Shown in pieces: positions 9,214-26,545 of a stretch of DNA of 56,113 bases. The position numbers and the translations under genes are program-made. Below the pieces are notes generated by a model. The model was given only the letters and a program-made list of their open reading frames with translations, did not search any database and was not told where the DNA came from. The first letter of the stretch is position 1. Every line of letters begins with the position of its first letter. This DNA comes from Rhodospirillaceae bacterium (GTDB taxonomy: Bacteria > Pseudomonadota > Alphaproteobacteria > MPNO01 > UBA830), in NCBI GenBank assembly GCA_002689465.1, contig NZGJ01000019.1:15025-71137 (forward strand), read 5' to 3'.

Positions 9214-11001
9214 TTAATCCACCATTGGAATTGCCGTCGTAAGGCCGCCAAATAACCTTAAAAGATCGGCGGTTTCCGGTACGACCGCATCCGCCGACCA
9301 GGCAAAGAATACTGCAGCCCTGGCGTCCCCATTCTCCACGGCGGGACTGACATCAAAGCGATGGGCTTTCTGCTCCACACCGAAACGGTACCAGTGTAAC
9401 GAATCGACCGGGGACGAAAGGGTCCCCGCCAGAGCCTGTACCGCGAGGTTCGTGCCTCCCTGCCGGAACATGGCGCCGTCAACCCGCTCCCAGTCCGAGG
9501 GAAGAAGGAACCGTGTCTCCGCCTTTAGCATCCTGCCGCGCCAAAGATCAGCGATCAGCAGGCCCTTTCCCGGCCACAAGCAAACAGCTCGGCGCACATC
9601 AACACCAAGATGGCCGTAGCCGCTCTGCCAGCCAGCAGCGAATAAAGCGCCGGTCGGGGGGGCGAAATCAAGCTCGCCGGCATGTCCGCGCCGCCCGACC
9701 CGAAACGATCGCCAGAATTCTATGGGCTCTGCCCCGATCAGGCGCGGACCGTTATGTGCAGCAGCAGAACGCGATGAATTCCGGTCAATACCGGCGGTAT
9801 AAGTTGGCACGCCAGTATCTACGAGGAACCGCATCCCGTTCGCTGTTGCTTCGACCGAGAGGAAATCCGCATGGGCATGCCCGGGGTTACTGTCAGGCCC
9901 ACAACGACCACAATCGAACACAACCGAATCCCCACCCGCGCCGAGCCGAACATACCCGGTGTCGGTAAGCCTTGTGATACGCGCTGTCGTTGTCGTGTCA
10001 ACCACGCTATCGGCGCGCGGTGCCTCGCCTATCCAAGAATCGTTCATCAGCGCAATTTCGCCATCGGCCAGCGTCATGACCTGCAGGGCCGCTGACATGC
10101 GGACCAACGTCTCATTAAGAAACGGCTGCCACGCATGTTGAAAAATGCCGCTTGCCACTAGGACCCTCACATCCACTATCGACAGGACATGATACATCGG
10201 ACAACGCTCGGCCTGACCGCCGTCAACAAGCACGTTTTGGCAGATAGACCTCAGCACAGCAGTTTCTAGCAGGCTAAGGGAGGGTGGCAGTGAGGCGCAC
10301 ATCCCGGCATAAGCCGTCAGCGCCACATAGTTCTTCATCAGGTGATTGAACTGAAGATCACGTTCGAGATTGGCACGAATGTACGCGGCACAGAACCTCG
10401 CATGTTCCAAAAGCACGGCCTCGGCTGCGGAGTCACGTTGACCGCCCGCCTTGTGGTAAAGCGCAAGACCGGAAAGTAGGTTGATCAGCCTGTGGCTGGC
10501 GGTATAAGAATTCCACACATCGCGAAAGACGCCTGGGATTGACCAGGCGTTCTGCGTTTCCAGCGAATCCACAAGCGCACGTATCGCAGCCAAATCCTGC
10601 ACCCGGCCCTGTGCCAACAGCGGTACCGCATATCCCATATAGGCAAGGTTCATCCGGCGCAGCGGGTTGTTGCCTTCATGAAAGTCGCCCCGCCAAGAAA
10701 CATCCTCCACGCTACCAAAATCGTAAGCGCGGTTAAGAAGTGAGAATTTTCCCTCTGGGACACCCGCATAGCTCTCACCATGCACAGCGGCTTGAAGCTG
10801 CAAAACGATTTCTGCAATCGCGACCGCCTGGCCCGCGGTTGGATCTGCAAGCGGCAATTTACCGGCGGCGCGTTCAATTCGCCGGCGGCAGAAGTCAGAA
10901 TGATAACGCATCACTAGGCGTTGTCCCTGGCAGATAAACCGGAACATCCACTGCTCCAAGGTCAGGTGACGTACTGTGCGCCAGAGGCGACCTAGAGACA
11001 T
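9214..11001 (-). CDS. heparinase II/III-family protein
   Basis: The 595-residue product has the alpha-helical toroid front expected of the family (about residues 100-330, including FNHLMKNYVALTAYAGM and CPMYHVLSIVDV) and a beta-sandwich back. The family's conserved stretch is seen as GHAHADFLSVEATANG with the preceding NPG. Family members are polysaccharide lyases cleaving uronic-acid-containing chains. In Gram-negative capsule or exopolysaccharide loci they occur as cytoplasmic or periplasmic proteins of unproven role; no signal peptide is obvious here. It lies 30 bases behind the bi-domain oxidoreductase gene, probably in one transcript, a pairing seen in other surface-polysaccharide loci. 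Confidence 0.88.
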   Translation of the reverse strand: MSLGRLWRTVRHLTLEQWMFRFICQGQRLVMRYHSDFCRRRIERAAGKLPLADPTAGQAVAIAEIVLQLQAAVHGESYAGVPEGKFSLLNRAYDFGSVEDVSWRGDFHEGNNPLRRMNLAYMGYAVPLLAQGRVQDLAAIRALVDSLETQNAWSIPGVFRDVWNSYTASHRLINLLSGLALYHKAGGQRDSAAEAVLLEHARFCAAYIRANLERDLQFNHLMKNYVALTAYAGMCASLPPSLSLLETAVLRSICQNVLVDGGQAERCPMYHVLSIVDVRVLVASGIFQHAWQPFLNETLVRMSAALQVMTLADGEIALMNDSWIGEAPRADSVVDTTTTARITRLTDTGYVRLGAGGDSVVFDCGRCGPDSNPGHAHADFLSVEATANGMRFLVDTGVPTYTAGIDRNSSRSAAAHNGPRLIGAEPIEFWRSFRVGRRGHAGELDFAPPTGALFAAGWQSGYGHLGVDVRRAVCLWPGKGLLIADLWRGRMLKAETRFLLPSDWERVDGAMFRQGGTNLAVQALAGTLSSPVDSLHWYRFGVEQKAHRFDVSPAVENGDARAAVFFAWSADAVVPETADLLRLFGGLTTAIPMVD

Positions 11002-11031
11002 ATCAACTTGCGGACCTGATCGGGACGAACA

Positions 11032-13200
11032 TCACAGATCCACCCGCGCGCCCCGCTGCAAGGACTCAAGCACGGCGATGGTCGCAAAACTCGACTGGAC
11101 AAGCTCCGCCTCACTAGCCGGTGCTAGACCGCCCGATGCCACGGCCTCGACAAAGGCCGTCAGTTCGGCAGCATGGCCTTTATCCTGTTCTATTGAACGA
11201 CCGACCTTGGATTGTTTTCCCCCCGCCGTAACCGTCAGAGCCCGGAAATCATCGATATTGATAACGGTGCCGCCGGCAAACGCCTCGATTAGCTCTTTCG
11301 AATAGGCGTTATCGCCCAGCGCCGTATAGGCAATTGTCGCAAGGCTGCCATCGGCGAAGTTGAGCGAAACAGTCAGATCGTCGCACGCGCCCCGAGACAC
11401 CTGTGCTGCTGCTGCTTGAACGGTCTTGATATCATCACCGACCAAGAAACGGGCGAGATCGACGAAATGGCAGACCTCACCAAGGATACGCCCGTTGCCT
11501 TCTTCGGCAGTGTTCTGCCAGCTGTCCTCCGGCAACTGACCGGCATTCGCCCGCAGCAGCACGTATTTACTGCCCCCCGCCGCCGCGAGCCGATCGCGCG
11601 CCTGCACTGCAAGCGGCGCGAAACGGCGGTTAAAACCCACCTGCAGAAAAGCGTCTGACTGCAACCGGGCACGTATGACCGTATTCAGCTCTTGGCGGTC
11701 CAGCGCTAGCGGTTTTTCAACCAAGACGTTCTTGCCGGCAGCAAGCGCCCGGGCCGTCAACGACGCATGGTTCGCATGTGGCGTCGCAATCAGAACGGCA
11801 TTGATATTGGGATTTTCGAAAATCGCGGATTCGTCTGTGTCCGAATAGGCAAAGCCGAAACTGCTGGCCGAATGATCAGCGGAAATACCGCGCTGGGTTA
11901 CCAGGGTGTGCAATTCGACCGCGTCGATCTTTTTCAACCGCGGCAGCAGCACCGTCCGCGCGAAATTACCAGCACCGATAACACCGAGGATACATTTCCC
12001 CGATGAGGACCCTCCCCTCGAAACAGAGATCGGTGTGCGAAGTTTTGGTGATTTTTCCTTCGGGATCGTATCGTATTCAAGGATTACCCCAAGATGGGGC
12101 TCGTTGTTGTTCAACACCAAGTCATAGGCTTTCTCGGCATCGACGAACGGAATTTTATGAGTGATCAACTGTTCGACCTGTAAACGATGATCACGCCGGC
12201 GGGACATCAACCGCACGGATTCTTCAAGATTGCGGGTCTCAGTCCAGCGCACGAAACCGACCGGGTATTTGACGTGACGGCTCTCGTAATCGGGATCGTA
12301 GCGGCCCGGCCCATAGGACCGCGAAACCACCACCGACAGTTCTTTTTTCATGAACAATCGATAATCAAATTCAGTACCCGTGATACCTATCAGGCTGATC
12401 GTCGCCTTGTCGCGGGCGATGGTTGCCGCGGTATCAAATGGCTCGCTGGACTCGGTCGCAGCCGCGATAACAACACCATCACAGCCCCTTCCGCTGGATA
12501 AGTCCATAATCGCGGCGGTGGGGTCACCCTGCGATAGGTCGCAAACCAGTTCAGCCCCGCTATCGGCCGCAAGTTTCAGGCGTTCGGCATTATAGTCGAG
12601 CACGATTACCCGGCAGCCCGCCAAATCGAGAAACTGGGCCGCGAGCTGACCGACAAGCCCGGCTCCGATAACAGCCACGACATCACCGAGTTGGGCCTCA
12701 ACCAGACGCGCGCCGTTCATGGCAATTGCCCCAAGGGTACCGAAACAGGCCTCCTCATCATTCACGTCATCAGGGACGGGCGCACAGAGATTTTCCGGCA
12801 CCGCGCTCAGTTCCGAATGATTGGCGAGTCCAGCCCCGGCGACCGCAACGCGCTCACCATTGCGGAATTTTCCTTCAAGTCCGGCGCCCACTTCGACCAC
12901 CTCGCCTACTGCAGAATAGCCTAGCGGCAAAGGCTCATCGAGCCGCGCCATGACCGCGCGCATAGTTGCACCAATACCATCACGCTTCGCCTTGTCGAGC
13001 ACCTTCCGCACCAGATCAGGTCGCGCTCGGGCCTTGGCCGCGAGGCTCTTTTTCGCAAAGTTGACGACCAGACGCTCAGTCCCCGCAGAGATCAGCGAGG
13101 CGCGGGTGCGGATTAGAAGGTGGCCTGGCCTGACCCTCGCATCAGGCACTTCTTTCAGCGCCAGCTGACCTGATCGGGCGCTTTGAACGACCTGTTTCAT
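11032..13200 (-). CDS. bi-domain oxidoreductase (zinc-type alcohol dehydrogenase + Gfo/Idh/MocA)
   Basis: The 722-residue protein is a fusion. Residues 1 to about 360 resemble medium-chain dehydrogenases: an N-terminal substrate domain with the PLGYSAVGEVVEVG segment, then a Rossmann fold with VAVIGAGLVGQLAAQFL. From about residue 395 a second Rossmann domain of the Gfo/Idh/MocA type starts at CILGVIGAGNFARTVLLP, with VLVEKPLALDRQEL as the conserved EKP motif. It probably oxidises and reduces a nucleotide sugar or sugar intermediate during polysaccharide synthesis; the real substrate of this fusion is not established. It leads the two-gene unit with the heparinase-like gene. Confidence 0.88.
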   Translation of the reverse strand: MKQVVQSARSGQLALKEVPDARVRPGHLLIRTRASLISAGTERLVVNFAKKSLAAKARARPDLVRKVLDKAKRDGIGATMRAVMARLDEPLPLGYSAVGEVVEVGAGLEGKFRNGERVAVAGAGLANHSELSAVPENLCAPVPDDVNDEEACFGTLGAIAMNGARLVEAQLGDVVAVIGAGLVGQLAAQFLDLAGCRVIVLDYNAERLKLAADSGAELVCDLSQGDPTAAIMDLSSGRGCDGVVIAAATESSEPFDTAATIARDKATISLIGITGTEFDYRLFMKKELSVVVSRSYGPGRYDPDYESRHVKYPVGFVRWTETRNLEESVRLMSRRRDHRLQVEQLITHKIPFVDAEKAYDLVLNNNEPHLGVILEYDTIPKEKSPKLRTPISVSRGGSSSGKCILGVIGAGNFARTVLLPRLKKIDAVELHTLVTQRGISADHSASSFGFAYSDTDESAIFENPNINAVLIATPHANHASLTARALAAGKNVLVEKPLALDRQELNTVIRARLQSDAFLQVGFNRRFAPLAVQARDRLAAAGGSKYVLLRANAGQLPEDSWQNTAEEGNGRILGEVCHFVDLARFLVGDDIKTVQAAAAQVSRGACDDLTVSLNFADGSLATIAYTALGDNAYSKELIEAFAGGTVINIDDFRALTVTAGGKQSKVGRSIEQDKGHAAELTAFVEAVASGGLAPASEAELVQSSFATIAVLESLQRGARVDL

Positions 13201-13339
13201 TTATGCAACCACATCTTTCGGATTTCCACGCAATCTTTGCTGCTACTCGAGGCGGGCGCAACTATTGTCGCACATAGATGGTTTGTTTCGGATTAGTTCT
13301 GAGAGGGATGATGTCAGTTTGAAATTCATAAGCTTGACC

Positions 13340-15247
13340 TCATGGACTCGCAGTCTCTGCATTATCTAGCGCCCGGCACCATAACTCCATCGCCATCATC
13401 GGGAAAAGTGTGAAAGCAGCATCAACGCGCTGAGCGTAAAAGTCGTCTTTGAGATCGGCCACTGCATCGGCATCGAATAGGCCGCGGGATGATACAGCCG
13501 CTGGGGAGGTCAGCTCTTCCATCATGTCCCGCGCAGGGCCCTGCAGCCAACTACGAACCGGCACACCAAAACCCTGCTTTGGGCGGGTCAGGATCTCAGC
13601 CGGCAGACGGTCGTGTTGAGACGCACGCAAGATAAGTTTGGTATCGCGCAAGCTAATTTTGGCCGAAAGTGGTAATTGCATGGCGTAGGCCACAAGTCTC
13701 TGATCTATCAGCGGGACACGTACCTCGACCCCCGCCTCCATCGCCATCTTGTCTGTGTAGTTCAGATTATGATCGGGCATGAACCCGTTGAGTTCGAGAT
13801 CAAGTAACCGTTCGACCGGATGATGCCCCCTCGTGCGATCAAGCGACATACGCAGTCCTTCGGCAATGCCGTCTGGGGGCATGGCGTCGCGCAAAGCGGG
13901 CGCCAGCAGCAGACGACGTCGATCTGTGCTAACTTCAGAATAACTCATCGCGTTGGCGAGCATCGCATCCTCGGGCATCGACAACAACGCGCCGATCCGT
14001 TTCAGGCGACGGCCGACAATGCTGGCCGGCGAAAACATCCCCAACACCATCGCACTAAACCCCCGCAGGCCGGGTATCCTGTTTGCTTTTGACCAGATCA
14101 GCCCTGCCGTGTGGCGGCCATACCCGGTAAACAGGTCGTCTCCACCAACACCCGACAATAATACCTTTATACCGTTCTCGCGTGCTGCACGGGCGAGTAG
14201 TAATGTCTGTATCCCAGCGAAGTCCGCCGTTGGTTCGTCGAGTTGCCAGACCATATCGGGCAGGGCGGCAATCAGGTCGGCATCAGTCGCAACCTCAATC
14301 AGCTTCACGCCAAGATGCTGCGCGACGGCCCGCGCATGGTTCTGATCATCGCCGAAATTATCGGTTCCAGAATCAGGTTTAGTGACCGCAGCACAGAAGG
14401 TTGTGATTTTCGACGGGTCAGTGGCGCGGCACATGGCGGCAACAATGGCACTCGAGTCGACCCCACCAGACAGTAACGCGCCAACTTCGACATCGGCGAC
14501 CATCTGATCCGCCACGACCTGATCGATCATATCACGCAGCGCGGCGGCATCATTTGGCGTCGGGGCGGCAGAGGCGTCAAATTTCGGCGTACTGTAATAG
14601 CTTGAACGGGTCACCGAACCACCGGCCGAAACGGTTAGCGTGGAGCCGGGCCGCAGTTTTTTGACGGCTCGGATCATTGTGTTCTCACCTGCCGTCCATA
14701 TAAAACCGAGATGATCCCCGACAGCCGTCGCATCGATATCCCGCGGAACATCGGGGCAAAGCGTCAACGATTTTAGATCCGAAGCGAATAAAAAACCCTG
14801 CGGCAACGTGGCATAGTAAAGCGGTTTTACGCCCATATGATCGCGGGCAATCGACAGCACGCGGTGATGTCGATCCCAAATGGCGAAAGCAAAAATACCA
14901 TTCAGCCGGTCGACACAATCGAGCCCATCGCGCGCAAAAAGGGAGAGTAGAACCTCTGTGTCCGATCCGGTACGGAACTTTATCCCGGACTGTTGGAGTT
15001 CAAGTTGGAGATCGCGGAAGTTATAGATCTCCCCGTTGTAGGTAATAACATACCGATCATCGGCGCTGTGCATTGGCTGCGCCGCGGCATCCGAGAGGTC
15101 GATTATCGACAACCGCCGATGGCCGAGCGCCACGCCATCTTCAGACCATAGACCACTTCCATCGGGCCCACGATGGGCGAGCGCCGTCGTTATCGCACCA
15201 GCCAGCGCCGGGGCCCAAGAACCAACGAAACCCGCTATGCCGCACAT
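13340..15247 (-). CDS. asnB: asparagine synthase (glutamine-hydrolysing)-type amidotransferase, copy 1
   Basis: The reading frame extends upstream, but the true start is the ATG at 15247, because class II glutamine amidotransferases need Cys2 exposed after Met removal (MCGIAGFVGSW). That gives 635 residues. The glutaminase domain shows RGPDGSGLWS, HRRLSIIDLSD and TYNGEIYNF. The synthetase domain has the canonical ATP-pyrophosphatase loop LLSGGVDSSAIV and later KQGFGVPVRSWL. The family makes asparagine from aspartate, but copies inside polysaccharide loci often amidate sugar uronates or similar carboxylates. The start overlaps the end of the orphan gene at 15235-15693 by 13 bases, which suggests coupled translation. 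Confidence 0.93.
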   Translation of the reverse strand: MCGIAGFVGSWAPALAGAITTALAHRGPDGSGLWSEDGVALGHRRLSIIDLSDAAAQPMHSADDRYVITYNGEIYNFRDLQLELQQSGIKFRTGSDTEVLLSLFARDGLDCVDRLNGIFAFAIWDRHHRVLSIARDHMGVKPLYYATLPQGFLFASDLKSLTLCPDVPRDIDATAVGDHLGFIWTAGENTMIRAVKKLRPGSTLTVSAGGSVTRSSYYSTPKFDASAAPTPNDAAALRDMIDQVVADQMVADVEVGALLSGGVDSSAIVAAMCRATDPSKITTFCAAVTKPDSGTDNFGDDQNHARAVAQHLGVKLIEVATDADLIAALPDMVWQLDEPTADFAGIQTLLLARAARENGIKVLLSGVGGDDLFTGYGRHTAGLIWSKANRIPGLRGFSAMVLGMFSPASIVGRRLKRIGALLSMPEDAMLANAMSYSEVSTDRRRLLLAPALRDAMPPDGIAEGLRMSLDRTRGHHPVERLLDLELNGFMPDHNLNYTDKMAMEAGVEVRVPLIDQRLVAYAMQLPLSAKISLRDTKLILRASQHDRLPAEILTRPKQGFGVPVRSWLQGPARDMMEELTSPAAVSSRGLFDADAVADLKDDFYAQRVDAAFTLFPMMAMELWCRALDNAETASP

Positions 15248-15693
15248 TTCAACAGTCCTACTACGTTGCCAGCTGGAGATACCGGCTCTCCAAGTCGCAA
15301 CTTGTCTTCTATCGTAAAATGCCGGCCGGCGACCCGTTCGAATACTTGGTTCTGATACAACCCTTGCTCGATTAACTTGCCCGTTTGCCGGTACATAAAA
15401 ATATAGGGCATATCGGCGCGATACGCCACCACGGCCATAACCCGGCTGGTGTACATGTACGGTAAAGGCCAGTGCATCAGGCTGAACATGCCTACATCCA
15501 CCCACAATTCTGGCTTGAGCGAAGAACGGGTCTCCCAGAAACGCAGCCTGTAGACGGCGAGGTATTTTACCACCACACGGGTAAGACCCATCAGGACCCC
15601 CGATCGAACATCGAGATTATCGGGATCCTTCACTCTCAACTGATAGATCGCAAGGTCATGGCGACACTGTGGCATTTCACGGAACACTCCCAC
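15235..15693 (-). CDS. hypothetical protein, 152 aa, overlapping asnB copy 1
   Basis: The frame encodes 152 residues starting MGVFREMPQCRHDLAIYQL and ending at a TAG 13 bases inside the asparagine-synthase gene that follows. Direction, codon composition like its neighbours, and the start-stop overlap argue that it is real and translated together with asnB. There is no signal peptide; a moderately hydrophobic middle contains many Tyr, Met and Trp residues (LMHWPLPYMYTSRVMAVVAY). I recognise no family. It is too short and lacks the Cys-His-Asp pattern to be a transglutaminase-like protease. Its position makes it a candidate accessory factor for surface-polysaccharide amidation. Confidence 0.5.
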   Translation of the reverse strand: MGVFREMPQCRHDLAIYQLRVKDPDNLDVRSGVLMGLTRVVVKYLAVYRLRFWETRSSLKPELWVDVGMFSLMHWPLPYMYTSRVMAVVAYRADMPYIFMYRQTGKLIEQGLYQNQVFERVAGRHFTIEDKLRLGEPVSPAGNVVGLLKCAA

Positions 15694-15924
15694 ACCGGCC
15701 TGTGACTGACCCTCTCCCTGAAGTAAGGGTTTCGCAAGTGCATTTTAAATTCGCATGTATATGCGGACGACGTTGGATCCATAAATTGTGTATGGTAGTG
15801 GTCCGACGCCGCGTCAACCTATTGCCGTGGCGGCCCACGGCACAGGCATCAGTATCTTGCATAACATCTTCCTAATTTTCGGAATACCGAAACCGCTCCA
15901 TTCTCACCAAATAGGCCGCGCCTT

Positions 15925-17709
15925 ATGTGCGGTATAGCCGGCATTTTTGCCTACGACAGCAGCGCGCCGCCGGTCGACCGGGACGCCCTTTTGCGGATGA
16001 GCAACTCTATGATTTCACGGGGCCCGGATGGCGAAGGAAATTGGGTCTCAGAAAATTTACGCACTGGGTTTGCGCACCGGCGTCTGTCGATTATCGACCT
16101 TTCTGATAGCGGCGCGCAGCCCATGCAGATGGATGGTGGCCGTCTGATGATTACCTACAATGGCGAAATATATAACTTCCGTGAGCTGCGCGCAGAGCTG
16201 GAACAGCAGGGCCGTCGATTTAGGTCAGAATCGGATACCGAGGTCTTATTGCATCTGTATGACAGGGATGGCGCCGCCATGGTCGAACGACTACGCGGGA
16301 TGTTCGCTTTTGCGATCCATGACTGCAAGAAACAGGCCGTTTTTCTCGCGCGTGACGGGTTCGGAATCAAACCTCTTTATTATGCAAATGATGGCCGGAC
16401 CCTACGTTTTGCATCGCAAGTTAAAGCTCTGCTTGCGGGCGGTGATATAGATACCGCACCATCCGCAGCGGGTCTCGCGGGTATTTATGTCTGGGGGTCG
16501 GTGCCGGAGCCGTGGACGTTGTTCGACAATATCCGCAGCCTGCCGGCAGGCAGTACGATGTGGGTTGACGCGACAGGTGCTGGCGAACCGGTTAAGTTTT
16601 TCGACGTTACACATGAGCTTGAACGAGCCTCAGAAACGCCTGAGCAATGGTCATGGGAAAACCTCCGCAATGCTTTGCTCGATACGCTGCAGCATCATCT
16701 CGTGGCCGATGTGCCCGTCGGCGCATTTCTATCTGCCGGCCTCGATTCGGCAACCATCGTCGCCCTTGCCGCCGAACTGCAACCCAACGCCCTCCGATCG
16801 GTGACGCTCGCCTTTGAAGAATTCGACAATACCGAGTTCGACGAGGCCGCTCTCGCGGAAAAAATCGCCTCGCATTATGACACTTCACACCGCACAGAAC
16901 GCCTGAAAGGCGCCGACTTTCATGCCGAATATCGGCGACTGTGCAGCGCCATGGACCAGCCGACTATCGACGGGGTGAATACTTATTTTGTTAGCAAAGT
17001 CGCAGCTGAAACCGGATTGAAGGTCGCCATGTCTGGGCTGGGAGGCGACGAAATGTTCGGCGGATATCCCAGTTTTCGACAGATTCCGCAACTCGCAGAG
17101 ACCCTCGGGAAAATTCCTGGAATGCGCTGTGCCGGGCAGCTATTCCGCAAAATCTTTGGGCCCACCATTAGTGCGGTAAAATCTCCCAAATACGCGGGTT
17201 TATTCGAATATGGCACCACCTACGCAGACGTGTATCTCTTGCGACGTGCGCTGTTTATGCCATGGGAGTTGCCGAACCTGATGGGCAGCACCATGGCTCG
17301 GGATGGTTGGGAGGAGCTTGAAGAAATCACCGGCAGACGACAGCAAGTCGATAGCCTGCATACACCGCGCACAAAAGTCTCCGCCCTCGAGGCAACATGG
17401 TATATGCGCCACCAGTTACTGCGCGATTCGGACTGGGCGGGGATGGCGCATTCGCTCGAAATCCGCGTCCCGCTGGTCGATACGGTCTTGTTCCGCCGGA
17501 TTGCGCCAATGTTGGTTTCGAAAACACCGCCGGGTAAGCGCGATATGGCGGCAAGTCCAACAAAACCATTGCCTGACACGGTACTGAACCGGTCGAAGAC
17601 TGGTTTCGCAGTGCCAATGCCTGATTGGTTGCTCAAGAACGATCCGGCCGCATTGAAGCAGGGCTATCGAGGGTGGCTACGCAAGATTATCGAAGACTGT
17701 TACGCCTGA
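15925..17709 (+). CDS. asnB: asparagine synthase (glutamine-hydrolysing)-type amidotransferase, copy 2
   Basis: The 594-residue product starts MCGIAGIFAYD, so Cys2 is the glutaminase nucleophile; RGPDGEGNWVS and TYNGEIYNFRELRAELE follow. In the synthetase domain the pyrophosphate loop reads FLSAGLDSATIVAL, with Ala in place of the first Gly of the usual S-G-G-x-D-S; the Ser and Asp that contact ATP remain. Later segments AMSGLGGDEMFGGYPSF and LEIRVPLVDTVLF are typical. It diverges from the other asparagine-synthase gene across a 231-base spacer and shows clear sequence differences from it, so the two probably amidate different acceptors. In this region a sugar-linked carboxylate is as likely an acceptor as aspartate. 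Confidence 0.92.
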   Translation: MCGIAGIFAYDSSAPPVDRDALLRMSNSMISRGPDGEGNWVSENLRTGFAHRRLSIIDLSDSGAQPMQMDGGRLMITYNGEIYNFRELRAELEQQGRRFRSESDTEVLLHLYDRDGAAMVERLRGMFAFAIHDCKKQAVFLARDGFGIKPLYYANDGRTLRFASQVKALLAGGDIDTAPSAAGLAGIYVWGSVPEPWTLFDNIRSLPAGSTMWVDATGAGEPVKFFDVTHELERASETPEQWSWENLRNALLDTLQHHLVADVPVGAFLSAGLDSATIVALAAELQPNALRSVTLAFEEFDNTEFDEAALAEKIASHYDTSHRTERLKGADFHAEYRRLCSAMDQPTIDGVNTYFVSKVAAETGLKVAMSGLGGDEMFGGYPSFRQIPQLAETLGKIPGMRCAGQLFRKIFGPTISAVKSPKYAGLFEYGTTYADVYLLRRALFMPWELPNLMGSTMARDGWEELEEITGRRQQVDSLHTPRTKVSALEATWYMRHQLLRDSDWAGMAHSLEIRVPLVDTVLFRRIAPMLVSKTPPGKRDMAASPTKPLPDTVLNRSKTGFAVPMPDWLLKNDPAALKQGYRGWLRKIIEDCYA

Positions 17710-18104: not shown

Positions 18105-19055
18105 TTAGCGGTCAGACAGAAGGTTGTCGAAATAGGCAATCGTCTGACGGAGTCCTTGATCAAGCTCGACCTTGGGTTCCCAACCGAGCTTCTCCTGCGC
18201 CAGCGTAATATCGGGGCGCCGGCGCGCCGGATCATCCTGAGGTAGCCGCTTATTCACGATTTTGCTTTTACTTCCTACAAAGTCGATGATCTTTTCCGCC
18301 AATTCTAAGATGGTAAATTCACCGGGGTTACCGATATTCACCGGCCCAACAAAGTCGTCATCCGACGCCATGATTCGCACAAACGCCTCAATTAAGTCAT
18401 CGACATAGCAGAACGACCGGGTCTGAGACCCGTCCCCGTAAAGCGTAATGTCGTCGCCGCTCAGGGCCTGAACGATAAAGTTGGATACGACGCGCCCATC
18501 GTTCGGGTGCATCCGTGGGCCATAGGTATTGAAGATTCGTGCTACTTTAATCCGGACTTGGTGCTGACGCCAGTAGTCAAAGAATAGTGTTTCTGCGCAG
18601 CGCTTGCCTTCGTCATAACAGGCCCGCAACCCGATAGGGTTCGTGTTGCCCCAATATGACTCATGCTGCGGATGGATCTCCGGATCGCCATAGATCTCAC
18701 TGGTTGACGCCTGAAAGACCTTGGCGCGCAAGCGTTTAGCGAGTCCCAGCAAGTTAATCGCGCCGTGCACACTAGTTTTAGTCGTTTGCACAGGGTCATA
18801 TTGATAATGCACCGGAGATGCGGGACATGCCAGATTGTAGATCTCGTCAACTTCGACATATAGCGGGAATGTCACATCATGGCGCATGATCTCGAAACGA
18901 GGATTATCGAGCAAATGCGCGATATTTTCTCTAGTCCCGGTGAAGTAATTGTCGACACAAAGGACATCGGCGCCATCATTCAACAGCCGTTGACAGAGAT
19001 GAGAGCCGATAAACCCGGATCCACCCGTGATCAGCACCTTCTTTGAAATCGACAT
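18105..19055 (-). CDS. uxs: UDP-glucuronate decarboxylase (UDP-xylose synthase)-like epimerase
   Basis: The 316-residue extended short-chain dehydrogenase starts with the NAD loop [17 protein letters not shown]. It has the catalytic Ser-Thr/Ser in [11 protein letters not shown] and Tyr-x3-Lys in YDEGKRCAE, then [21 protein letters not shown]. This combination, with [16 protein letters not shown] near residue 80, is characteristic of UDP-glucuronate decarboxylases, which oxidise, decarboxylate and reduce UDP-glucuronate to UDP-xylose. It would supply pentose for surface polysaccharide or LPS in the cytoplasm. It stands next to the two amidotransferase genes, in keeping with a glycan locus. Close relatives include dTDP-glucose dehydratases, but the PASPVHYQ motif favours this call. 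Confidence 0.9.
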
Positions 19056-19430
19056 ATGAACTCCCTACTCACTAATTTAAACTGGTCAAAATCTTTTCAA
19101 GGCTAGCACCGACAGTCATGCAAAAGAACCTTGACAGCCTGTGCGGTCAATAAGCTGACTACCCGTCGCTCAATCCGTTTTTTCTCATCAAACCTGTCAA
19201 AGGGAGTCCGATGTTATTTAGTGCTAACCGTTACTCTTTGCCGCGCATAAATGCCCCGTTAAGGACATCTAAAGGCCAAAGTCGCCCTACCGTCCTTTGC
19301 CAGAGCTTTATCTATAAGTCTGGGGCGACCTCGTCTGAAGGCGCGGATTGTCAGGGTTTGTTAACCTTTCTAGCCGGATCTGATGGGATAACCAAGACCG
19401 GCGAGTCCCAGATATAGAAAATTTACACCA
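19056..19430. other. intergenic region with one doubtful small frame
   Basis: The 375-base spacer lies between the epimerase start and the end of the HPr-kinase-like gene. A plus-strand frame at 19211-19417 (68 codons, MLFSANRYSLPRINAPL...) has AAAGGGAG just upstream of its ATG, but no family or conserved pattern supports it. Promoters for the epimerase gene should lie near its start. Nothing else was recognised. Confidence 0.35.
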
Positions 19431-20336
19431 TTATTTCTCGGCGGCCTCATCCAGGTGTCGTAACTCCCGCGATAAAAGCACAGCTGCGTCCCGGCTGCTT
19501 GAAAACCGAAGATGGTAGGTATCGGTGGAATCTACAAATCTAGTCATTGATGACAAAAGCTGAAGCGAGGAGATATGCGGCGCAAAGGCCGTGCGAACCA
19601 TTGCCTTCAAAAGCTCCGGGCGGGACCCCGGACGCAAACTGGACTTGCCTGTCTCTGTCCTGACGAGAAACACAATTGCGCGGACCGGAGCCGTTTCGCC
19701 GAACGTACTGGCCTCACCTTCCCAGAGTTTGAGATAAGCCATGGCGTCACCCCGCATCGAAGTGTACCCATCCACAAACTCGCGGAATGGATCACCGCAA
19801 TCATCAGGGAGAGGCAGACGTACTTTAGGCATAAGCCCGAGGCACATGCCTGAATATGGATTTTCGAGTTTCAACGCGATCTGGTCATCCCCAAAAAACC
19901 GATTTCCGAGAACGGCGAGATGAATTGCCACGCTTGACTTTCCCACAAACCGGTCGCCGATCACAACCACAAGGCCATCGCCCACACGGGCTGCCCCGGC
20001 GTGCAGACACACCGTTTGAGGCGCGCGGGAGACATAGGTGCTGACAAGTTCTCCAGAAAGGCCATTGGCTGCGTCGTAAGGATTGTCGAACGCCAAAGAT
20101 GCTGCGCCAAGCCCACTGCTAATGACCCGGAAGGTCCCGTCGGAATTCTCAACCACTTGTATATCGGGTTTCCGATCATCGCCAGTTGCAGCCCATTTCA
20201 GAGGCCAGCCTGCCAGGTAATATGGCAGATATGGCATCACCGCCTCCGCGTTCTCTACCAGAACTGGGTTATCGTCAGGGCCAATCCACCAGAAAGCCGG
20301 GGCTTCCTCCGCTCTTCCGCGGACAGGATCAACCAT
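19431..20336 (-). CDS. HPr-kinase-like P-loop protein
   Basis: The product is about 301 residues from the ATG at 20336, which overlaps the regA stop codon by eight bases; an ATG nine codons upstream (20363) is also in frame. The second half resembles the C-terminal kinase domain of HPr kinase/phosphorylase: a P-loop VVVIGDRFVGKSSVAIHLA, then RFFGDDQIALKL where the paired acids bind metal. The first 90 residues match nothing I know. HprK-related kinases of this type occur beside polysaccharide or peptide-modification genes and few have known substrates. Translational coupling to regA suggests that it is expressed with the redox regulators. There is no membrane segment. Confidence 0.75.
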   Translation of the reverse strand: MVDPVRGRAEEAPAFWWIGPDDNPVLVENAEAVMPYLPYYLAGWPLKWAATGDDRKPDIQVVENSDGTFRVISSGLGAASLAFDNPYDAANGLSGELVSTYVSRAPQTVCLHAGAARVGDGLVVVIGDRFVGKSSVAIHLAVLGNRFFGDDQIALKLENPYSGMCLGLMPKVRLPLPDDCGDPFREFVDGYTSMRGDAMAYLKLWEGEASTFGETAPVRAIVFLVRTETGKSSLRPGSRPELLKAMVRTAFAPHISSLQLLSSMTRFVDSTDTYHLRFSSSRDAAVLLSRELRHLDEAAEK

Positions 20337-20901
20337 CACCGGGAGGAGCCTCTCGCGGCGCACGCTTTGACAAGATTCGCTGGAGCGTTCTGCGATGCAT
20401 ATTCAGACGCCGCGCAGTTTCCGACACGTTACGGTCGCATTGCTCGTAAACACGCTGAATATGCTCCCAACGAACACGATCAGCCGACATGGGATTTTCA
20501 GGTGGGGGTGGCAGGCTATCACCTTTCGCCAGCAAAGCAGCTTCAATCGCATTGGCATCTGCTGGCTTCGCAAGATAATCCAGCGCGCCCGCTTTTACGG
20601 CGGCCACCGCCGTCGCTATATTGCCATAGCCTGTTAGCATAATGATTCGCGATTCGGCTCGGCCTTCCTGGATCGCTGACACAATTTCAAGACCGCTGCC
20701 GTCGGCCAGACGGAGATCAAGAACTGCAAATGCTGGAGGTTTGGAGCGCGCTTTTGACACACCATCCCTTACAGTCGCCGCCGTCATAACTTCAAAACCT
20801 CGACTTTCCATCGCACGGGCGAGACGGATCCTCAGGGGTTCGTCATCATCGACGATAAGAAGCGTTCTGTCTTCGAAATGTTCAAGTGTTTCTGCTATCA
20901 T
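20329..20901 (-). CDS. regA: redox response regulator RegA/ActR/PrrA
   Basis: The 190-residue protein has a receiver domain with acidic pocket LLIVDDDEP and phospho-acceptor Asp62 in AVLDLRLADGSG. A proline-rich linker (SLPPPPENP) follows, then the short C-terminal helix-turn-helix NVSETARRLNMHRRTLQRIL, which is very strongly conserved in RegA orthologues. RegA, phosphorylated by RegB, controls respiration, carbon and nitrogen fixation and, where present, photosynthesis genes in response to redox state. The gene begins two bases after regB ends and its stop is overlapped by the HPr-kinase-like gene, so the three are probably one operon. Confidence 0.97.
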   Translation of the reverse strand: MIAETLEHFEDRTLLIVDDDEPLRIRLARAMESRGFEVMTAATVRDGVSKARSKPPAFAVLDLRLADGSGLEIVSAIQEGRAESRIIMLTGYGNIATAVAAVKAGALDYLAKPADANAIEAALLAKGDSLPPPPENPMSADRVRWEHIQRVYEQCDRNVSETARRLNMHRRTLQRILSKRAPREAPPGDG

Positions 20902-20903
20902 AA

Positions 20904-22256
20904 TTATGGTCCCAGTTCCTGTACCTCTAGGTGGTCACGGCGCCAGACGATATCTACCTTCGCACCCTTTGGCCGATCATTCTCGAAAGCCACAGTGGCC
21001 CCTGATCGTTGCAGAAGCGTTTTGGCTATAAAAATACCCAGGCCCATATGACCGGCGGGGTTCATTCTCGAAGAGATATAGGGTTCACCGACATGCTCGA
21101 GAAGTCCGGGCGGAAAACCGGGACCGTCATCACGGATAGATACTCGAATTTCGTCAGCATCCCAGCCACTCGAGACATATACGGTAGATAATGCAAACTG
21201 GACGGCGTTTTGAATGATATTACCAATCCCGTGAATCACCTCAGGACTTCTTACGACAATAGGTTCGGGGCCAGCAGCATTTTCCTGCAACGGCATTGTC
21301 TCGAAAGAGAAAGTTACGTGATCCTGATGGTGACGCTCCGCTGCGGCTTGGACCAGGGCGTGAACCGGTAATAAGGAAAATGGTGATGAACGATCTTCGC
21401 CCTCATCCGACCGGTCGGAGAGTTCTGCCAGAATGTCCCGGCAGCGTGCCGTCTCACTTATGAGCAACTGGACATCGTCGGAAATGAGACTGTCGTCCGG
21501 CAAATCGCGGGCTATTTCACCAGACACGACAGCGATCGTACCCAATGGGCTGCCCAGTTCATGCGCAGCTGCAGCCGCAAGGCCGCCCAATGCCGCAAAT
21601 TGTTGTTCCCGAGCAAGGGCAAGCTGACTGGCTGCAAGCGCATTGGACATGCGGCGAGCTTCCTCAGCAACGCGCCAGGTATAAATCGCAAAAAATACGA
21701 TTCCGACGGCAAGCGCCACCCAGATTCCCAGCACATACATCTGCGGCACCGAGAACCCGCCTTCCTCCCACGGCAACGGATAATGCATTACAGCGAGCAG
21801 GGTGATGCTCGCGACCGACAATACACAGAGAGCAAATGTGCTGCGGATTGATAAAATCGTAGCTGACACGGCGACTGGCGCAAGCAACAAGAACGAGAAT
21901 GGGTTCTCGAGACCGCCTGTCAGATACAGCAACGCCGCAAGTTGCATAATATCAAAGGCGAGAAAAGCTGCAGCCGGCCGGTCGCCCAACCGAACTGGCG
22001 TCGGGTGGCCAGACATCACGATAAGATTCAAGAGTAACGACGCACCCACCACGGAAAACGCCGCAGCCAAGGGCACTGGAAACCCCAGGCCGAAATGGAC
22101 AATCAGCAGAGCCAGTGCCTGACCGACAATAGCAACCCACCGGATTAACGTGAGCGTCCGCAAGCGTACCGGGTCTGTCGCAGCCGGCGCCATTTCATAA
22201 GCCGCGTTCACCGACATAATATGGTCAATTTCACGGCCACCGCTCGGGGCATCCAT
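20904..22256 (-). CDS. regB: redox sensor histidine kinase RegB/ActS/PrrB
   Basis: The 450-residue protein has about six N-terminal membrane segments and then a transmitter domain. The quinone-sensing heptad GGxxNPF is present as GGLENPF (residues 114-120). The phospho-accepting His232 lies in AAAHELGSPLGTIAVVSGE. A redox-sensitive cysteine equivalent to the one known in Rhodobacter RegB is Cys272 in SETARCRDILAELS. ATP-binding boxes follow: IGNIIQNAVQFA, RDDGPGFPPG and MGLGIFIAKTLL. It should sense ubiquinone pool and oxygen state and phosphorylate RegA. An alternative start is Met14. It diverges from an ABC exporter operon. Confidence 0.96.
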   Translation of the reverse strand: MDAPSGGREIDHIMSVNAAYEMAPAATDPVRLRTLTLIRWVAIVGQALALLIVHFGLGFPVPLAAAFSVVGASLLLNLIVMSGHPTPVRLGDRPAAAFLAFDIMQLAALLYLTGGLENPFSFLLLAPVAVSATILSIRSTFALCVLSVASITLLAVMHYPLPWEEGGFSVPQMYVLGIWVALAVGIVFFAIYTWRVAEEARRMSNALAASQLALAREQQFAALGGLAAAAAHELGSPLGTIAVVSGEIARDLPDDSLISDDVQLLISETARCRDILAELSDRSDEGEDRSSPFSLLPVHALVQAAAERHHQDHVTFSFETMPLQENAAGPEPIVVRSPEVIHGIGNIIQNAVQFALSTVYVSSGWDADEIRVSIRDDGPGFPPGLLEHVGEPYISSRMNPAGHMGLGIFIAKTLLQRSGATVAFENDRPKGAKVDIVWRRDHLEVQELGP

Positions 22257-22384
22257 ATGTCACCTCAGAAATCGCTGGGTGAGGTCTATCGCGATGTTTC
22301 GTCGGTGTGAAGTTTATTCCACACATAGAAGCCAAACGGCAAAAGTTTCTGGCGCGCTGCGCCAGAAGTTCCCATATTCACGAT

Positions 22385-23143
22385 ATGGTCGAAATCGCAA
22401 TCAAAGTAGAGAATCTTACCAAGAAGTTTGGCGATGTCGTCGCTATCAAAAGCCTGAGCTTCGATGCACGCGAAGGAGAGATCGTCGGTCTACTGGGTGG
22501 CAATGGTGCCGGAAAGACAACGACAATTTCCATGATCCTCGGCTTGCTGATTCCCACGTCAGGCACGTTAGAGGTGCTCGGTACCGATATGCTGCGCCAT
22601 CGTTATCGTGTGTTGCCGCGGATTAATTTTTCGTCGCCATACGTGGATTTGCCCAAACGTCTTACATCCCGCGAAAACCTAATGGTGTACGCGAAGCTAT
22701 ACGGCGTCGCTTCCCCCCAAGACCGTCTTTCGGAATTGGCCGCAGGTCTGGCAATAGACGAGCTGCTCAACCGGCCCTTTGGAGAGCTCTCGTCGGGTCA
22801 AAAAACCCGCGTGTCCTTGGCAAAATCTCTTTTAAACGAACCCGAACTATTATTGCTAGACGAGCCAACGGCATCATTAGACCCCGATACCGCAGATTGG
22901 GTACGCACCTACCTCAAGGACTTCCAGAAGAAAAGAGGCGCGACCATCCTGCTCGCATCTCACAACATGGCGGAGGTCGAACGTCTCTGCGATCACGTCG
23001 TGATGATGAAAAGGGGCAGAATCGTCGACCGTGCAAGCCCCGCGGTCCTATTGGAAAAATACGGTCGGGCAACCCTGGAAGAGGTCTTCTTAGATATCGT
23101 CCGCGATCGCAGTATTCCCGGAGCACAGCAGGTGGCGCACTAG
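22385..23143 (+). CDS. ABC-2-type exporter, ATP-binding protein
   Basis: The product is 252 residues from ATG 22385 (MVEIAIKVENLTKKFGDV). Walker A is LLGGNGAGKTTTISMILG, the signature is GELSSGQKTRVSLAKSLL, Walker B is LLLLDEPTASLD, and the switch His is in LLASHNMAEVERLCDHV. Together with the permease 2 bases downstream it forms a half-transporter pair like CcmA/NodI/DrrA exporters. An in-frame GTG at 22307 would add 26 poorly conserved residues; neither start has a strong ribosome site. Substrate unknown; export of a lipid, glycan or small molecule are all possible. Confidence 0.9.
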   Translation: MVEIAIKVENLTKKFGDVVAIKSLSFDAREGEIVGLLGGNGAGKTTTISMILGLLIPTSGTLEVLGTDMLRHRYRVLPRINFSSPYVDLPKRLTSRENLMVYAKLYGVASPQDRLSELAAGLAIDELLNRPFGELSSGQKTRVSLAKSLLNEPELLLLDEPTASLDPDTADWVRTYLKDFQKKRGATILLASHNMAEVERLCDHVVMMKRGRIVDRASPAVLLEKYGRATLEEVFLDIVRDRSIPGAQQVAH

Positions 23144-23145
23144 AT

Positions 23146-23979
23146 ATGCAGGCAATCAAACCGAGCCATGCTGACAGGGGATATTATTTTTCACCACGGC
23201 GAGTTGGCGCAATGGTCCTGCGATATTTTTATCTTCTGCGTGGCTCTCTGCCGCGAATTATCGAGCTTTCTTACTGGCCGACAATGCAGATGTTGATCTG
23301 GGGATTTATGTCCCAATTTCTCTACGAACATTCCGAATGGTTTTTCCGCGCCGGTGGCATTCTGATTGCGGCGGTCCTGCTATGGGACGTTATGTTCCGC
23401 TCGAATATCGGCGTTTCGATCTCATTCCTGGAAGAAATGTGGTCGCGAAATCTGGGGCAGCTTTTTGCGAGCCCGTTGCGCCCCTACGAGTGGGCATGCG
23501 CATTATTGATGATAAGCGGTATCCGGACCCTGATCGGCGTTGTCCCTGCGGCGTTACTCGCAATCCCGCTTTATCACTACTCGATTTTCGAAATGGGTTT
23601 GCCCCTCATTGCCTTTTTCATGAACCTACTCATATTCGGCGCTGCCGTCGGCTTGGCCGTATCAGGGCTAGTCCTGCGTTGCGGATTAGGGGCCGAGAGC
23701 CTTGCCTGGGCGGTTATTTTCGCGGTTGCCCCCTTAAGCGGTATTTATTATCCGATCAGCACCCTGCCCGACTGGCTGCAGCCAATTGCCTACAGCCTGC
23801 CATCTGCGCATGTCTTCGAAGGCATGCGGGCCGCAGCAAGGGACGGCGTATTCCTGTTCGATCGGTTTGTCTGGTCGGTATCGCTAAACATGGGTTATCT
23901 CGCCTTAGGTATGGCAGCGTTTCTTTGGGCATTCCGAGTCGCCCGGCATCGGGGCCAATTGCTGCAAATGGGCGAATAG
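23146..23979 (+). CDS. ABC-2-type exporter, permease
   Basis: The product is 277 residues from the ATG at 23146, two bases after the ATPase stop codon. After a short cytoplasmic front it has about six membrane segments, with the ABC-2 membrane-domain features: an early amphipathic stretch (YWPTMQMLIWGFMSQFLYEH), the EEMWSRNLGQLFASPLRPYEW coupling region and the closing YPISTLPDWLQPIAYSLPSAHVFEGMRA, typical of NodJ/DrrB-like permeases. It should dimerise in the inner membrane and work with the preceding ATPase. Beyond it lies a gene-poor stretch with a broken gene, so the operon probably ends here. Confidence 0.9.
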   Translation: MQAIKPSHADRGYYFSPRRVGAMVLRYFYLLRGSLPRIIELSYWPTMQMLIWGFMSQFLYEHSEWFFRAGGILIAAVLLWDVMFRSNIGVSISFLEEMWSRNLGQLFASPLRPYEWACALLMISGIRTLIGVVPAALLAIPLYHYSIFEMGLPLIAFFMNLLIFGAAVGLAVSGLVLRCGLGAESLAWAVIFAVAPLSGIYYPISTLPDWLQPIAYSLPSAHVFEGMRAAARDGVFLFDRFVWSVSLNMGYLALGMAAFLWAFRVARHRGQLLQMGE

Positions 23980-25474: not shown

Positions 25475-26071
25475 GTGCGCGTCTATCAGGTTTTACTATT
25501 GGGTGTATCCGGAATGGCGATAGCAGCTTTTGCGGTGTTTATTTTTTATGGCGGCGGTACAGGCGGTAAAGGTCTCTCTTCGATCGGTGGGTCGTTTGCA
25601 TTAATCGACCACAAAGCCCAACCGAAAACGGACAAAGATTTTCGAGGTCGCTATATGTTGATCTACTTTGGTTACACCTACTGTCCCGATGTCTGCCCTA
25701 CGGCCCTGCAGTCGATGACCGAGGCGATGGACAATCTTGATCCCAAGACCCAGAAAAAAATCACTCCAATATTTATTACAGTCGATCCGGAACGCGACAC
25801 AGTAAAACAACTGAATGCTTATGTTGAAAATTTTCATCCGACTACAGTAGGTCTGACAGGAACCGTCGAGGAAATTGCCAAAACCGCTCGGGTATACAGA
25901 GTTTATTTCGGCCGTGCGAAGGGCGTTGAAGAGGACTCGACAGATTACCTAATGGATCATAGTTCCATAGTCTTTTTGATGGATCCAGATGGGGAGTACG
26001 TGACCCATTTCACCCATGCGACGCCGCCGAAAAAATTGGCGGAACGGTTAGCGAAGGTAGTGGGTCCCTGA
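25475..26071 (+). CDS. senC: SCO1/SenC-family copper chaperone / thiol oxidoreductase
   Basis: The 198-residue protein has one N-terminal membrane anchor (YQVLLLGVSGMAIAAFAVFIF) and a periplasmic thioredoxin-like domain. The copper site is complete: C-P-D-V-C-P in GYTYCPDVCPTAL, and the distant His in YLMDHSSIVFL. SCO proteins deliver copper to the CuA or CuB centre of cytochrome c oxidase, and in Rhodobacter senC is linked to regA and influences its signalling. The start is a GTG at 25475 with GGAG ten bases upstream. The ycgN gene begins three bases after the stop, so they form an operon. The regBA genes lie about 3 kb away on the other strand. Confidence 0.93.
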   Translation: MRVYQVLLLGVSGMAIAAFAVFIFYGGGTGGKGLSSIGGSFALIDHKAQPKTDKDFRGRYMLIYFGYTYCPDVCPTALQSMTEAMDNLDPKTQKKITPIFITVDPERDTVKQLNAYVENFHPTTVGLTGTVEEIAKTARVYRVYFGRAKGVEEDSTDYLMDHSSIVFLMDPDGEYVTHFTHATPPKKLAERLAKVVGP

Positions 26072-26074
26072 GAC

Positions 26075-26545
26075 GTGACAAGCACTGTACCCTTCTGGGA
26101 GTCGAAGACCATCGACGAAATGGATGCCGACGAGTGGGAATCGCTTTGTGACGGCTGCGCCAAATGCTGCCTAATCAAGCTAGAAGACATCGAAACAGGT
26201 GACATTGCATTTACCGAGATCGTCTGCCGATTGCTTGAGCTCGGCACTTGCGCCTGCTCAGATTATCCCAACCGGTCAACACGTGTCCCAGATTGCCTGC
26301 AAGTAACGCCTGATCTCGCGCGGACAGCGAATTGGCTGCCATCCACCTGTGCATATCGGTTGATTGCCGAGGGTAAAGAACTGAGCTGGTGGCACCCCCT
26401 AGTTTCCGGCAGTCACGAGACAGTCCACACTGCGGGCATATCAGTCCGTGACAAAGTCGTGCATGAATCCCAACGCATAGACCCGGAAGACCATATTGTA
26501 TCTTGGCCCGAGCAACGGCAGGGCGGTGAGCCGGGCGACACCTAA
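26075..26545 (+). CDS. ycgN: YcgN-family cysteine-cluster protein
   Basis: The 156-residue product starts at a GTG three bases after the SCO1 stop. It matches the YcgN/UPF0260 family: [20 protein letters not shown], then [14 protein letters not shown], a later [17 protein letters not shown], and VPDCLQVTP with the closing [16 protein letters not shown]. Eight or more conserved cysteines of the C-x2-C-x2-CC type suggest a metal or Fe-S cluster site, but the function is not established. Sitting in an operon with a copper-delivering protein is suggestive of metal handling, which is inference only. Confidence 0.9.

Follow-up and report, generated by a model that had tools for sequence, protein, structure and literature searches.

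RegB and RegA form a global redox regulator in Alphaproteobacteria. In a 56,113-nucleotide stretch of DNA from a Rhodospirillaceae bacterium (contig NZGJ01000019.1; hereafter the window), their genes are followed by a third gene, whose product resembles HPr kinases, and this raises the question of what such a protein does behind a redox-sensing pair. The original prediction was that HprK-type metabolite sensing provides an added input to redox control. We arrive at a different answer and give a probability of roughly 55% to the reading, drawn by analogy, that the protein is a peptide kinase like those encoded in RiPP (modified-peptide) clusters, made from the regBA operon and now orphaned in this lineage.

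The gene arrangement and its conservation

The gene regB (20904..22256, minus strand) encodes a 450-residue redox-sensing histidine kinase of the ActS/PrrB/RegB family with HATPase_c, HisKA and a PilS-like transmembrane region, and regA (20329..20901, minus strand) encodes a 190-residue response regulator of the ActR/PrrA/RegA family. Both reach the equivalog level in NCBIfam (RegB with NF033792: 523 bits, cut-off 350; RegA with NF033791: 307 bits, cut-off 250) and are thus ordinary relatives of the pairs known from the model operons (PrrBA, ActSR). The third gene (19431..20336, minus strand, 301 residues), which we assign from weak PF07475 and TIGR04352 matches, its modelled fold and its regA-adjacent orthologues, follows in the same direction. 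The coordinates agree with the close packing described at the outset: two bases (20902-20903) separate regB from regA, and an 8-base overlap, ATGGTTGA, spans the ATG of the HprK-like gene (20336-20334) and the TGA of regA (20331-20329). An alternative in-frame start, GTG, lies upstream at 20363. From this spacing we infer that the kinase gene is co-transcribed with regBA, and its expression is perhaps under redox control via this operon.

As in the model operons, a SCO1/SenC gene lies close by (25475-26071), whereas the HprK-like gene and an ABC-2 transporter pair (ATPase, then permease; 22307..23979, plus strand) divergent from regB set the window apart from them. The original remark that the arrangement is unfamiliar from model RegBA operons stands, in that a search of open-licence papers found none naming RegB, RegA and 'HPr kinase' together. 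Beyond the ABC-2 pair, the segment 24770-26545, with an ankyrin-repeat protein, SCO1/SenC and a small gene (26075-26545), is conserved near regBA in much of the order. On the other side, the next gene downstream of the kinase, for a UDP-xylose-synthase-like nucleotide-sugar epimerase/dehydratase (18105..19055, minus strand), is probably a separate transcript. Further along (9214-17709), two asparagine-synthase-like genes and others resemble a polysaccharide cluster, and AsnB and the nucleotide-sugar enzyme recur close to regBA within the same family.

A kinase homologue is present in 18 of 61 genomes (that of the window and those of 60 relatives; the genomes compared are mostly metagenome-assembled and incomplete), and nearly all those in the window's order lie directly behind regA. 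In a profile search, 13 of 13 full-length regA-type copies of the order adjoin regA, while a split copy in another genome (G009, L023) has its start right behind it. Surveying regA neighbourhoods, as the original prediction had proposed, therefore revealed tight, repeated coupling to regBA and not the absence beside regA in all relatives that would have spoken against it. In a broader sample of 385 alphaproteobacterial genomes, with the family counted at E <= 1e-8, the kinase occurs in 39 genomes and RegA in 192, most of the latter having no kinase homologue. Where both could be placed, they lie within 12.2 kb of each other in 16 of 21 genomes and 8 of 12 families; well under one such pair would be expected if genes were placed at random, although these counts, like those for PqqD and motifs below, treat related genomes as independent. 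Outside the order, the two genes are directly adjacent in G054 and G322 and likely also in G147, where both sit at contig ends. A tree built from 41 homologues groups the regA-adjacent copies of the order as a single clade (support 100/99). The arrangement is thus genuine and old, though absent from most RegA-bearing genomes, and its conservation rules out a one-off or chance association.

The two parts of this arrangement also occur separately. Three relatives (G023, G025, G026) have deleted the kinase gene and kept regBA, and some genomes that have a homologue lack RegA (L037, L096, L112). One of these genomes (G042) carries two tandem kinase copies (L112, contig C63) and a third on another contig (L113, C10).

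Relationship to HPr kinases

The window protein falls below every HprK cut-off: 17.8 bits against PF07475 (cut-off 33.3), 12.7 against TIGR00679 (240) and 24.5 against TIGR04352 (200), the last being nevertheless its best NCBIfam match. The similarity is weak, local and located around the P-loop. There, the motifs of HprK are intact: H112 (in VCLHAG), a Walker A sequence of the form GxxxxGK[ST] (GDRFVGKS, codons 127-134, 19935..19958 on the minus strand, placed by alignment, with codon 1 at the 20336 ATG) and the Asp pair D150-D151. An AlphaFold model (pLDDT 94.8, pTM 0.90) matches PEP carboxykinases in the PDB along its whole length (7e-8) and HprK over the kinase core (1.7e-7), and, as modelled, the protein has the PEPCK/HprK superfamily fold.

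Fold and core motif are therefore shared with canonical HprK/P and with the alphaproteobacterial HprK of the PTS-Ntr, but the genome has its own, true PTS-Ntr HPr kinase elsewhere. This hprK lies between chvG and rapZ in a canonical locus on contig C19 (G000:C19:3798-7395; L001, L168). Looking for a PTS-Ntr HPr gene, as had been suggested, did turn one up, close to this canonical hprK; the window kinase is on contig C10 and has no genomic link to HPr or PTS genes. The missed cut-offs and the separate hprK/HPr locus together rule out that it is the HPr kinase.

A closer likeness is found in the HPr-rel-A system of NCBIfam, in which an HprK-related kinase A (TIGR04352) is paired with a PqqD-family chaperone (TIGR04353), since homologues of the window kinase show the same pairing. 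However, these kinases score only 22-48 bits against the cut-off of 200 and the PqqD proteins 15-21 against 35, and the window itself has no adjacent PqqD-type chaperone. Judged by these scores, the kinase family is a sister of the HPr-rel-A family, not a member. Neither 'HprK-related kinase' nor 'HPr-rel-A' was found in the open-licence papers searched.

Partner genes and their decay

Across the family, the kinase has recurrent neighbours. PqqD (PF05402) is encoded directly downstream of, or fused to, the kinase in 24 of 40 homologues checked (counted by hand; G314, whose flank was not fetched, is left out), NTP_transf_5 (PF14907) lies near it in many, and several have an exporter pair, HlyD and a C39-like ABC transporter, convergent to it. 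PqqD and the exporter pair are both present in G016, G054, G112 and G322. The fullest layout is that of G054, in which an ABC-2 pair is divergent from regB-regA-kinase-PqqD and the convergent HlyD and ABC exporter genes follow; G112 is arranged likewise, but with opposite-strand reading frames between regA and the kinase. Apart from the missing regBA, the RegA-less loci L037/L097, L096 and L112 carry a block of this kind. Because its partners are PqqD, NTP_transf_5 and C39-ABC/HlyD, the family would appear to function in peptide tailoring and export. The ABC-2 pair, too, is found beside kinase/PqqD pairs in genomes without regBA; at the RegA-less loci just named, it adjoins them like the pair at 22307-23979 of the window, as if regBA had been excised from an older block.

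Such a function has precedents. In known systems, precursor peptides are phosphorylated by HPr-kinase homologues, which a PqqD/B1 protein assists, and the peptide phosphate can be glycosylated by a nucleotidyltransferase (PMC10368454, PMC8498205). The window kinase shares the H, GKS and DD elements of the lasso-peptide kinases BsfK, in which the conserved motif reads H-G-G-G-K-S-D-D, and paeninodin kinase (PMC10368454). Likewise, the B1/PqqD protein and the pseudomycoidin nucleotidyltransferase of lasso systems have their counterparts among the kinase's partners in the window's relatives, a nucleotidyltransferase and a protein of PqqD type (PMC10368454, PMC8498205). The systems differ in that our homologues have a C39-like ABC/HlyD exporter and a link to regBA, and in that the partners are gone in the window. 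A strict lasso-peptide cluster is rejected, as a scan of ten genes flanking distant homologues showed no lasso protease or cyclase. The set that marks a RiPP cluster (precursor peptide, RRE/PqqD, exporter) is missing from the window, and the regA-linked copies have no conserved short precursor beside them, only PqqD, NTP_transf_5 and their remnants. Beside some distant homologues, short leader-like proteins (SRRxALARLGLAAAxxYAAPT, twin-Arg-like) encoded directly 5' of the kinase are candidate precursor peptides (L036/L094, 6835-7146; L095, 8276-8533; L115, L116, L117 and L119). No open-licence paper found in our search combines PqqD, HprK and a nucleotidyltransferase.

In the window's lineage, the partners have decayed. 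The intergenic stretch 3' of the kinase gene (19056..19430, minus strand) is the site at which relatives have PqqD and NTP_transf_5 or their remnants; in the window, permissive tblastn detects no remnant there, and both genes are absent from the rest of the genome, which is 67% complete, so that a partner could be missed. In a genome of the same genus (G001), broken remnants of both lie at the expected position, a scrap of NTP_transf_5 is left in G004 (permissive tblastn), and in G024 PqqD is truncated and adjoins a fragment of a transposase.

The kinase itself is still under constraint. Between the window and G001, its pN/pS is 0.27 (dN ~0.21, dS ~1.66), compared with 0.08 for RegA and 0.13 for RegB. 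Values of 0.13-0.19 in the genus of G010, G012, G014, G018 and G024 rise to 0.27-0.35 in partner-less lineages and to 0.66 in G007/G020, with synonymous changes near saturation in most pairs compared; overall, the kinase's rate of evolution is several times that of RegA. The partner-less G004, G006, G007 and G020 have either an altered P-loop or none, and one of the two motif Asp residues is changed in G001. Motif loss affects 6 of 16 copies without PqqD versus none of 24 with it (Fisher p = 0.002, uncorrected for kinship), while the motif is intact in G022 and in the window copy, both of which lack PqqD. Even in G004, G006, G007 and G020, frames of about 300 codons have stayed open, which at saturated synonymous divergence has a chance of only ~1e-5 to 1e-9, and the non-catalytic W44 and P175 remain conserved in the kinase.

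Weighing the explanations

In the reading that we favour, the protein would be a serine/threonine peptide kinase of PEPCK/HprK fold and not an HPr kinase; its neighbour genes and fold point to this function. Its older alphaproteobacterial setting would be a cassette with a PqqD-type protein for presenting the precursor peptide, and the kinase, by analogy with the lasso systems, would phosphorylate this peptide. The NTP_transf_5 enzyme may decorate the peptide phosphate further, and the C39-like ABC transporter with its HlyD partner would export the product. Several families have this cassette immediately after regBA or a short way off, and its kinase would then be expressed as part of the operon for redox sensing. 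Once PqqD and NTP_transf_5 had gone, the window's lineage would have been left with a lone kinase gene in third place in the operon, whose product may still have a target. Three findings weigh against this reading: the regA-linked copies have no precursor peptide next to them, the kinase motif is preserved in the window copy and in G022 although PqqD is gone, and the flanks of the homologues checked lack the protease and cyclase of the lasso systems from which the analogy is drawn.

The original idea, a metabolite-sensing HprK that acts on RegA or HPr by phosphorylation and couples redox control to carbon status, now appears very improbable. It could draw on the intact Walker A, His and Asp pair of the window copy, the HprK-like fold of the model, the position in the regBA operon and the presence of HPr in the genome, but it conflicts with the missed cut-offs and with a canonical hprK sitting with HPr on contig C19. 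It also fits poorly with PqqD, NTP_transf_5 and C39-ABC/HlyD as the stable partners and with a RegBA pair that outlasts the loss of the kinase. A lack of nucleotide binding, which was to count against this idea, applies to the four regA-linked relatives that have lost ATP-binding residues, but not to the window copy with its intact motif.

A single observation nonetheless calls for a role on RegBA or another new role, namely that the kinase has survived the loss of PqqD and, in sister lineages, of the ATP site; it may conceivably take part in RegBA signalling. Rather doubtful, in our estimate, is that the kinase is by now a RegBA accessory that associates with RegB or RegA, whether with ATP or without, and modulates redox signalling, this being the reason why it outlived PqqD and, in some lineages, its own active site. 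The 8-base overlap in the window and the tight spacing throughout the order, the constraint after partner loss (window against G001), the long open frames without intact ATP site and the conserved W44 and P175 all agree with such a role; the persistence of RegBA after kinase deletion in three relatives, the many RegA-bearing genomes without kinase, its faster evolution than RegA and the homologues in RegA-less genomes do not. We are a little more doubtful still about its bolder form, in which the regBA operon took up a peptide-tailoring kinase that has since become a third player in redox signalling and that, in some lineages, acts as a pseudokinase on RegB or RegA without ATP. It is unlikely, moreover, that the kinase is a mere relic, a former cassette gene drifting after partner loss and held temporarily by an operon under selection. 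Partners that are pseudogenes or gone, the raised pN/pS of partner-less lineages, motif erosion and clean deletion in three relatives would suit a relic, whereas the long frames kept open against the odds and the full set of catalytic motifs in the window copy argue against one.

Our preferred reading of an orphaned peptide kinase bears on redox regulation in Alphaproteobacteria more generally. That RegBA is linked repeatedly to a cassette of PqqD, peptide kinase and exporter suggests that a phosphorylated peptide is made or exported in a redox-controlled manner. The open-licence papers searched contain no such connection between redox control and peptide modification. In the window's order, in turn, the orphaned kinases, some of them ATP-dead, offer a direct test system for a second job of such a kinase in a RegBA operon.
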